In this document: positions 10,840 through 39,503 of the stretch, piece after piece | Layout of the letters: every line of letters begins with the position of its first letter | Position numbering within the stretch: position 1 is the stretch's first letter | From: Deltaproteobacteria bacterium | GTDB lineage: Bacteria; UBA10199; SPLOWO2-01-44-7 | Direction of reading: 5' to 3' | DNA: 55,551 nucleotides | NCBI GenBank assembly: GCA_023265595.1 | Contig: JAHFSU010000011.1 | Span: 1 to 55,551, forward strand | Position numbers and translations under genes: made by a program | Notes under the pieces: generated by a model | What the model was told of the DNA's origin: nothing | What the model saw: the letters and a program-made list of their open reading frames with translations, nothing else | The model's database searches: none

Positions 10840-11085
10840 ATGGATGACAAAACCTTTAAAACCCTTTTTGACCAAAATCGAGAGAAAATTTTCGAGGCGT
10901 GGAATAAATTAAGCGATCAAGATTTAGATGAAATTAGAGGTGATTTAAGCCGATTTTTGAAGAAGGTCTCTTCTATTTATAAAACCCCGGACACGATCAT
11001 TTTAAAGGAGCTCGATGCGGTCAAGAAAAACGTCGATGAAGGGATCAGCGCTGATTATGCCCCCCATCTCGATCCACGAGAGTAG
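10840..11085 (+). CDS. Small CsbD-like stress protein
   Basis: An 81-residue acidic, helical protein. The core IFEAWNKLSDQDLDEIRGDL (17-36) parallels the CsbD family pattern W..LTD.DL..I.G, and the following FLKKVSSIYKT resembles its L..K.Q..YG helix. CsbD proteins are small stress-induced proteins without known enzymatic activity. The ATG is preceded by an excellent ribosome site (AGGAGGG). It is transcribed away from the 407-residue gene. The C-terminal 25 residues have no family match. Confidence 0.6.
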   Translation: MDDKTFKTLFDQNREKIFEAWNKLSDQDLDEIRGDLSRFLKKVSSIYKTPDTIILKELDAVKKNVDEGISADYAPHLDPRE

Positions 11086-11129: not shown

Positions 11130-11154
11130 CTAAAGTTTAGCTTTAAATCCATGA

Positions 11155-11187
11155 AACAAAAAACCCACTGTTGCTCAGTGGGTTTTC
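11155..11187 (-). terminator. Intrinsic terminator of the structured RNA
   Basis: Minus strand: stem AACCCACTG, loop AGCAA, stem CAGTGGGTT, followed by a run of T (six in all). Read on the plus strand only four T follow, so the minus strand is favoured, though it may act in both directions and also end the CsbD-like transcript. Confidence 0.75.
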
Positions 11188-11775
11188 TACAAGCGCTCAA
11201 ATAATCGTTTAGGTTAGTGGCTTATTCGTTTCTCCAGAGTTTTTATCTCAGATGTAGGCGGCCTCCCTTTCGAGTGCCTTTATCTCTCTTGCGCTTTATT
11301 TTTTGGGTTCGTACGGCCCAAAACCTGCGTTTCAGAGATTAGATTCCATCACCTGAAGACAGTAACTTTTGCTTGACCGGATCGCCAAGCTTTGGTTGCC
11401 AATCCTCTCGTGAAATTTCCTTTGGACTTATAAGGTTCTTTCAGAAATTTGAGGGGCACTGCTTCCAGCACCTCATCCTCTTTCACCCTTAGCAACCTCC
11501 CTTGCCCTAGAGTTCGGGAGATCACTGAATCTTAGAGTCTTGCTCTTGTCTCTGATATCGAACACCCTGTTGGATGCCCGACCCCTTTTTAGCCCCTTGT
11601 TCCGGTTCGCCCTCAACCTTTAAGAAACAGACTACCTTTAGTTCCGGTTCCCCCATAAACCAGAAAGCATTACTGCCTCTTGATATATGGTTCAAAGCTT
11701 GCCTGCCTCAGCCTTACGTAGATTGAGCGACCACTTCGGTTGCCACTCCTAAACGATTACTTGATAGCTTGTCAA
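11155..11775 (-). ncRNA. Candidate large structured non-coding RNA, about 610 nt
   Basis: No plausible reading frame fills this block. Its ends pair in a long terminal helix: on the minus strand CAAGC, TCAA, TAATCGTTTAGG and GTGGC (from 11771) meet GCCAC, CCTAAACGATTA, TTGA and GCTTG (ending 11190), with only small bulges. A terminator follows at once. Inside are hairpins such as GGTGCT/AGTGCC around 11455-11472 and CATCC/GGGTG near 11561-11575. Both need G-U pairs on the minus strand and would be mismatched on the plus strand, so the RNA is probably minus-sense. The sequence GAACCGGAAC occurs twice. It does not show RNase P, tmRNA, 6S or rRNA signatures. A known giant class (GOLLD, ROOL, OLE) cannot be excluded by eye. 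Confidence 0.65.
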
Positions 11776-12089
11776 AGAACTTACTTTTTTCACATCAACA
11801 ACAAGGCTGGTTTTACTGGAATCAAAAAATCGCGCAATACTATTTTTTTGAACCGACCGCTAATGCAGTACTGGCGCGGAGAAAAAATTTAAGAAATCGG
11901 TTTGCCTTTTTGTTATTTTTTTGGCGACGGCAATGTATCGAAATAACCAGTTAGAAATTATAAGATTTTTGGATAATGTCCTACCGAACGATTTTGGGAA
12001 TGGCATCCAAAAGGAAGGCAACGAGCTTCATTCCTGTGGCAAATCCAATAAAATAGCCTATTAGGCGATGATAAGCCCTCATACTATTG
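11776..12089. other. Non-coding leader region between motif B and the structured RNA
   Basis: About 310 bases, AT-rich, with several T-runs. The only open frames are short and lack a ribosome site. On the minus strand CTTATAATTTC near 11964 gives a good TATAAT -10 but no clear -35 at 17 bases. It may be the 5' leader of the structured RNA if transcription starts at motif B, or may hold the RNA's own promoter. Confidence 0.4.
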
Positions 12090-12550: not shown

Positions 12551-13351
12551 ATGCCTACTTTTCAAGGAGTCTTTGGAAAAATCTTTTATACAATCCGCGG
12601 CAAGGGACTTCCGGTGTTTTTGATCCCCGGAATGGGGGCCTCCCATCAGGAGTGGTTTCAGCAGGTTCCGGTTTTAAGCAAACAGTTTCAAGTGATCACG
12701 TTCGATAACGCCGGTTCGGGAAAATCGGTCCATCCCGATTCCGAAATTTCGATTTTGGAGATGGCCGAAGATGTTCATCGGCTCCTGCAACACTTAAAAT
12801 TGGAGAAAGCGGTTTTGGTCGGCTCTTCGATGGGGGGATTGATTGCCCAGTGCTGTCTTGAAAAATATTTCGATAAAATTGCGGGGCTTGTTTTGTCGGC
12901 CACTTTTGGGCATGTCGATAATCACATCGTTCAAATTTTGTCGCCGCTTCTTCGCTCCCGACAATCTCCTAAAGTCCGCATTCGCAATGTTTTGCCTCTT
13001 CTGGTGTCGGAACAATTTATCAAAGAGAAGCTGGAGATTGCCAAACAATATGTGCAAAAAGCGGAAAAATTTGCCGCTCCCCGTGCCGTCTTGCAAAGAC
13101 AGGTTCGCGCGGTTTTAAATTTTACACCGCACCCGATTCAGCGCACCCACACCATTCCTATTTTAATTCTGGTCGGAAGTGACGATCCGATCACGCCGCC
13201 CGCCATGGCCTACGAAATTCAAAAGCGCTATTCCCATTCAAAGGTACACATTATCGAAGGTACAAAACATCTTCCCCATGTGGAAAGGGCCGAGGAATTT
13301 AATCGATTGATAGAAGATTTTCTTTCGTCATTGCGAACCCCAATGGGGTGA
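12551..13351 (+). CDS. Alpha/beta hydrolase
   Basis: A 266-residue serine hydrolase. An in-frame start at 12521 overlaps the divergent gene; ATG at 12551 (MPTFQGVFGK) fits the fold better. The oxyanion region is LIPGMGASHQEW, the nucleophile elbow VGSSMGGL (Ser93), the acid VGSDDPIT and the base EGTKHLPH. Fold members act on esters, lactones or other small substrates; none can be assigned. The last codons, TCA TTG CGA ACC CCA ATG GGG TGA, are the left arm of a dispersed inverted repeat (13327-13398), so the C-terminus has been rewritten by that repeat. Confidence 0.85.
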   Translation: MPTFQGVFGKIFYTIRGKGLPVFLIPGMGASHQEWFQQVPVLSKQFQVITFDNAGSGKSVHPDSEISILEMAEDVHRLLQHLKLEKAVLVGSSMGGLIAQCCLEKYFDKIAGLVLSATFGHVDNHIVQILSPLLRSRQSPKVRIRNVLPLLVSEQFIKEKLEIAKQYVQKAEKFAAPRAVLQRQVRAVLNFTPHPIQRTHTIPILILVGSDDPITPPAMAYEIQKRYSHSKVHIIEGTKHLPHVERAEEFNRLIEDFLSSLRTPMG

Positions 13352-13398
13352 AGCAATCTCAAGATTGCTTCGTCGGCCTACGGCCTTCTCGCAATGAC
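13327..13398. repeat. Inverted repeat of the GTCATTGCGA...GAAGCAATCT family (full two-arm copy)
   Basis: Left arm starts GTCATTGCGA and ends GAAGCAATCT; the right arm starts AGATTGCTTCG and ends TCGCAATGAC, so the arms pair end to end. The left arm encodes the last codons and stop of the upstream hydrolase, and the right arm ends 2 bases from the carB stop. One-arm copies occur at 42855-42899 and 44889-44933. Confidence 0.8.
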
Positions 13399-13400
13399 AG

Positions 13401-39429: not shown

Positions 39430-39503
39430 GGCTGGGTAGCTCAGTTGGTGAGAGCGAGGGATTCATAACCCCTAGGTCGGCGGTTCGACTCCGCCCCCAG
39501 CCA
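39430..39503 (+). tRNA. tRNA-Met (CAT)
   Basis: Acceptor GGCTGGG pairs with CCCAGCC, D-arm AGCTCAGTTGGTGAGAGC, anticodon CAT in TTCATAA, T-arm GGCGGTTCGACTCCGCC. The G1-C72 pair and general form fit elongator Met; tRNA-Ile2 with lysidine cannot be ruled out. The anticodon stem has A31 opposite C39. CCA is not encoded. Confidence 0.92.

Follow-up and report, generated by a model that had tools for sequence, protein, structure and literature searches.

A conserved, boxA-preceded structured RNA gene with a closing helix and duplicated domains in an uncultured bacterial phylum

Analysis of the window, a 55,551 nucleotide stretch of DNA from a Deltaproteobacteria bacterium (contig JAHFSU010000011.1), revealed a structured non-coding RNA of 593 nt on the minus strand between 11780 and 11188, running from a boxA-like element to the end of a closing helix and supported by folding energy, homologues and covariation. 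The region 11130-11800 folded with -228.3 kcal/mol compared to -180.9 ± 7.4 kcal/mol for shuffled sequences (z = -6.4), and none of 20 shuffles was as good. A preliminary description, made from the sequence alone, had placed an untranslated block between 11155 and 11775; no ORF above 58 aa was found inside the RNA region and a structured RNA is indeed present there, but its limits had to be moved to 11780 and 11188, as 11155 belongs to the U-run of a terminator. This intrinsic terminator, AAAACCCACTG-AGCAA-CAGTGGGTTTTTT, lies on the minus strand (11157-11186) directly behind the RNA, as had been proposed. Likewise, the predicted terminal helix of more than 20 pairs was recovered as 29 bp between the ends of the window copy, on the minus strand. 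The two hairpins named in that description (11455-11472 and 11561-11575) were real. The first, at 11456-11471 on the minus strand (UGGAAGCA loop region), is the conserved helix 10 of the consensus structure, with compensatory changes in 5/6 pairs; the second, at 11558-11581 on the same strand (UCGGGCAUCCAACAGGGUGUUCGA), was found in the window fold and lies within the model of the middle domain (R3). A small CsbD-like protein of 81 aa (10840-11085; named from sequence only) adjoins the RNA in the window, and a homologue of it does so in G003; outside the family it is not a neighbour. Elsewhere in the window, a short sequence resembling a palindromic repeat (GAAGCAATCTCAAGATTGCTTC followed by CTCGCAATGACAG) was noted behind a hydrolase gene at 13340-13400.

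By plain DNA search, each of the five remaining family members was found to carry a homologue of 67-81% identity, present as two fragments in G002. The same search gave short anchors in three genomes further away, where inspection revealed full-length copies. Covariance model R1, which represents the 3′ domain, matched 24 of the 46 class members with E-values between 1e-11 and 6e-46. The same 24 were recovered with the broader model R2 across the phylum, which in the genome set searched coincides with the class. About half of the phylum's 46 genomes were without a match; either not every member depends on the RNA or it is too divergent for detection in these. Model R3, which covers another segment of the RNA, matched directly beside the R2 site in 23/24 genomes, the exception being a truncated copy in G042. 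Beyond these, R3 gave only two matches, both marginal (E 0.004-0.008). In the window's own genome its match had an E-value of 2.0e-36. Across 385 genomes of the domain, credible matches were found only in the phylum and in one other genome, G223 (E 2e-18). Five genomes of the G223 phylum were searched, and this revealed a second carrier, G385, with two loci (E about 2e-13). Both G223 and G385 were matched independently by R3, and their loci (L058 in G223; L115 and L116 in G385) are distant relatives in a second small phylum, apparently longer at around 1 kb. A match in G355 (E 5e-4) was rejected, the surrounding sequence having no evident boxA or closing helix.

There is one locus per genome, apart from in-place tandem arrays, and the copies are chromosomal, intergenic and at non-homologous sites. 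The flanking genes vary from genome to genome; outside the closest family they include dnaB, ATP phosphoribosyltransferase and oligoribonuclease-like genes (named from sequence starts). Cis-regulation was rejected and a trans-acting RNA is favoured, because outside the nearest family each copy is flanked by different genes and none of the neighbours is conserved. A phage or plasmid origin was also rejected: no record in the phage and plasmid collections searched matched the RNA, and scans of viral sequences for the pattern gave only two matches, both of which were due to chance and were unconfirmed by the model.

The 27 full-length copies were aligned (alignment A5) and a consensus structure of 90 pairs was obtained with RNAalifold, in which 79/90 pairs showed at least one compensatory change. 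In this alignment 93.1% of cells were paired, compared to 73% in shuffles and 37-49% when the partners were slid by 1-3 columns, a control that favours the structure somewhat because the structure was derived from these same sequences. The covariation score was 0.619 compared to 0.243 ± 0.008, and 0/500 shuffles were as good, although relatedness of the sequences inflates such shuffle tests. Given the slid-partner controls and how many pair types occur, there is no reasonable doubt that a base-paired structure is under selection. The closing helix, which resembles a leader-trailer helix, is formed on the minus strand by a 5′ arm at 11742-11773 (consensus pairs 11748-11760) and a 3′ arm at 11189-11223 (consensus pairs 11201-11213). 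It was present in 27/27 copies with 16-30 bp, and 12/13 of its consensus pairs showed compensatory changes. The mean energy of an arm with its own partner was -32.5 kcal/mol compared to -18.5 kcal/mol with the arms of other genomes, and 0/2000 permutations were as good. The preliminary description had suggested looking for compensatory changes as a check, and in the terminal helix and the two hairpins alike they were found decisively; neither a decayed intron or IS nor helices broken without compensation were seen.

The RNA can be divided into three domains, all on the minus strand. The 5′ domain (11601-11741; helices 2-5 and alignment) is variable and largely absent in G012 and G015. It is followed by a middle domain (11422-11600; R3) and a 3′ domain (11226-11420; R1 and R2), which by covariation is the most conserved part, with compensatory changes in 37/41 pairs and 92.8% of cells paired. 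The middle domain of the window was cross-matched by the 3′-domain model with 20.1 bits (E 0.0004). When every position was scored with R2 without filters, the secondary matches coincided with the middle domain over the full length and in the correct orientation. Fifteen of the first 16 (14.1-25.0 bits) were the middle domain and the remaining one (25.0 bits) was an additional domain copy within G223; outside these RNAs the highest match scored 11.1 bits. Reciprocally, R3 matched the 3′ domain in several genomes. The two domains, of ~180-195 nt each, share a common plan of 4 bp, a 3x3 A-rich loop and 4 bp, then a hairpin, a second 4-3x3-4 module that closes a variable hairpin, and a last hairpin. 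These cross-matches show the middle and 3′ domains to be homologous, the RNA having been enlarged by internal duplication. At least three such domains are present at the G223 locus, and G385 may carry more; the RNA is therefore modular, and the number of domains appears to vary between phyla.

The boxA-like antitermination element, GTTCTTTGACAA, lies at 11769-11780 on the minus strand, adjoining the 5′ arm of the closing helix. All 27 copies matched GNTCTTTGANAA at 9/10 or more positions directly before the closing helix, 14 of them perfectly. This is a short motif, which matched 60-70 times per 330-400 kb on both strands, and ~0.1 matches were expected by chance. The 16S leader of the same genome has GCTCTTTGAAAACTAAATAGCG before its own leader-trailer helix, with a complementary trailer after the 16S, and boxA precedes the 23S too in the phylum. 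The element would thus probably act as a boxA. In Escherichia coli, boxA is both required and sufficient for the antitermination complex, 30S subunits cannot form without a leader-trailer helix of more than 17 bp, and the rrn leader likewise carries boxA directly before the 5′ arm of the helix that joins the ends (PMC10250234). The 16S of the window's genome (L012; G000:C55:37151-39691) measures ~2.5-2.8 kb between its conserved ends and must therefore contain an insertion of at least 1 kb (an intron or intervening sequence); the 16S of G004 likewise looks longer than normal.

Head-to-tail tandem copies were found in two genomes, four in G041 and two in G044, each copy with its own boxA and with a strong terminator only after the last copy of each array. 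This layout, in which boxA is repeated before each unit as it is before 16S and 23S, is the pattern that an antiterminated operon of stable RNAs would be expected to show. The G041 array (L060; G041:C341, reverse strand, about 230-2760) has diverged closing helices; it adjoins an MBL-fold protein and a histidine kinase, both named from sequence only. A strict scan found terminators behind 14/27 copies compared to 0.1 expected from shuffles, and was used in place of a lax scan that did not discriminate (22 compared to 14.8 expected). Several of the 13/27 copies without a strict terminator (G041a, G041b, G041c and G044a) lie inside arrays. Upstream of the window copy, a candidate promoter, TTGCGC-16-TAAAAC (11810-11837, minus strand), is suggested by a conserved block in the aligned upstream regions of the family. 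It was not called by simple promoter scans, and the promoters of the copies match the sigma-70 consensus poorly.

Two features of an rRNA-type antiterminated transcript were present, namely a boxA near the 5′ end (27/27 copies) and a covarying end helix of 16-30 bp. The RNA enclosed by this helix, by contrast, matched no rRNA model. The RNA might be ribosome-associated, assist ribosome assembly or act as a decoy for ribosomal proteins, being made with the rRNA transcription machinery. Its boxA and leader-trailer plan, identical to that of the phylum's 16S and 23S leaders, would accord with this, and OLE is reported to bind the ribosomal protein bS21 (PMC12054373). Nevertheless, boxA alone indicates the mode of transcription and not the role, no rRNA family was matched, and we regard such a ribosomal role as unlikely.

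The preliminary description had offered two options, an unreported member of a class such as GOLLD, ROOL or OLE, or a new class. Its proposed search with cmscan, run against all 4227 families of Rfam 15 at gathering and at permissive thresholds (E up to 5-10; the window and eight homologous loci), gave no relevant match, GOLLD, ROOL, OLE, introns and rRNA included. Together with the covariation this bears out the proposal, and of the two options a new class is the better fit. OLE, ROOL and GOLLD are likewise RNAs of ~600-800 nt that are highly structured, mostly non-coding and of largely unknown function, and the abundance of ROOL can equal that of 16S rRNA (PMC12286853). A far-diverged member of these classes acting in the same mode (an RNA-only cage or a membrane RNP) would agree in size (OLE ~600 nt; ROOL env-120 659 nt; PMC12286853) and in its closed ends, ornate fold and autonomous locus. 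We give it only a small chance, as even the permissive scan found no match in the window or the eight homologous loci, no phage or plasmid record matched and the two viral pattern matches were not the RNA. Furthermore, the genes for GOLLD and ROOL lie close to tRNA islands in phages and prophages (PMC12286853), whereas this locus is chromosomal and outside a tRNA island, the tRNAs of the window lying at 39430 and 47459. The window RNA differs from all three in having no sequence or covariance match to them and no phage link found. It also differs in being chromosomal in an uncultured phylum, and in its boxA, DnaA boxes, domain duplication and operon-like tandem copies.

RNase P RNA (RF00010) and tmRNA (RF00023) are bacterial RNAs that are likewise stable and structured, measure several hundred nt and have paired ends. 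Both were rejected, as they are encoded elsewhere in the same genomes (at another locus in 7/8 and 6/6 genomes, respectively). A group I or II intron was rejected too, there being no Rfam intron match and no ORF above 58 aa in this intergenic RNA. Although its size and complexity would permit a ribozyme, a decayed group I or II intron or another mobile element, such an origin is very improbable given these results and the single locus per genome save for in-place arrays, intergenic at non-homologous sites and with its own terminator. The RNA could conceivably still be catalytic. No report of such an RNA was found in the open-licence literature.

The regions upstream of the RNA carry DnaA boxes. 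The exact box TTATCCACA was present upstream of boxA, mostly by 110-230 nt, in 17/23 genomes, compared to a background of 2-3 per 330-400 kb (one per 130-200 kb) in the two genomes counted. The distant relative G223 also carries a DnaA box upstream. The link to DnaA is weakest at the window copy, where only a degenerate box with one mismatch, TTATCCAAA, was found (11968-11976, minus strand) in place of the exact boxes of most homologues; three close relatives (G001, G003 and G005) had no DnaA box. The upstream boxes are often trailed by a T-run. DnaA is a known transcription factor that binds the box TTATCCACA (PMC8203912), and a DnaA-regulated promoter would be the simplest reading of the upstream boxes. 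The locus is not oriC because dnaA lies on other contigs or 180-500 kb away and no GC-skew switch was found in G030 or G015. That it is mainly a DnaA-binding site in DNA (titrating or regulatory, like datA) with the RNA as a passenger is scarcely credible: the boxes are strongly enriched, also at G223, but base-pair selection spans the RNA's 590 nt, no exact box is present at the window copy or in some relatives, and the locus is not oriC.

The locus thus holds a conserved, covarying and autonomous RNA gene with a boxA, a closing helix, tandem arrays and internal duplication, and we consider it probable that it represents a new class of large, autonomous, trans-acting non-coding RNA whose expression resembles that of a small ribosomal RNA gene. 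In such a class the RNA would be antiterminated in the style of rRNA, controlled by DnaA, trimmed at its ends and highly abundant. Transcription would start from its own promoter ~35-60 nt before boxA, tuned to growth or the cell cycle by DnaA bound upstream. The boxA of the nascent RNA, judging from its motif and position, may recruit NusB/S10 (NusE), and the polymerase could then cross 600 nt of untranslated structured RNA, or tandem copies of it, without Rho termination. The ends pair into the 16-30 bp leader-trailer-type helix that closes the RNA, which may be trimmed by RNase III, and the transcript would be released by the intrinsic terminator, whose sequence was seen behind roughly half of the copies. 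Once mature, the RNA would consist of two homologous ~180-195-nt domains, each with the 4 bp/3x3 A-rich loop/4 bp plan twice. It would most likely be an abundant structural RNA or the scaffold of an RNP rather than a cis-regulator, possibly linked to ribosomes or growth. More tentatively, it could be a third rRNA-like stable RNA, that is, a modular RNA with a duplicated ~190-nt domain, antiterminated through boxA, at times made from tandem units and controlled by DnaA, that forms an abundant particle coupled to growth or to the cell cycle; it would apparently have two such domains in one phylum and more in another.

The preliminary description had included neither boxA nor DnaA box, and neither the duplication within the RNA nor its tandem arrays; the original observation is stronger than could be seen from the window sequence. 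To our knowledge, only a few bacterial RNAs of such size and complexity are known, most of them without an agreed function. Covariation support for this large RNA spans a whole uncultured phylum, its features connect a large non-coding RNA with the machinery of ribosomal transcription and perhaps with DnaA, and it illustrates the growth of a large RNA through domain duplication; each of these opens concrete tests. As the RNA has been kept by many members of the phylum and is apparently made like rRNA, it is probably an important component of the cell.
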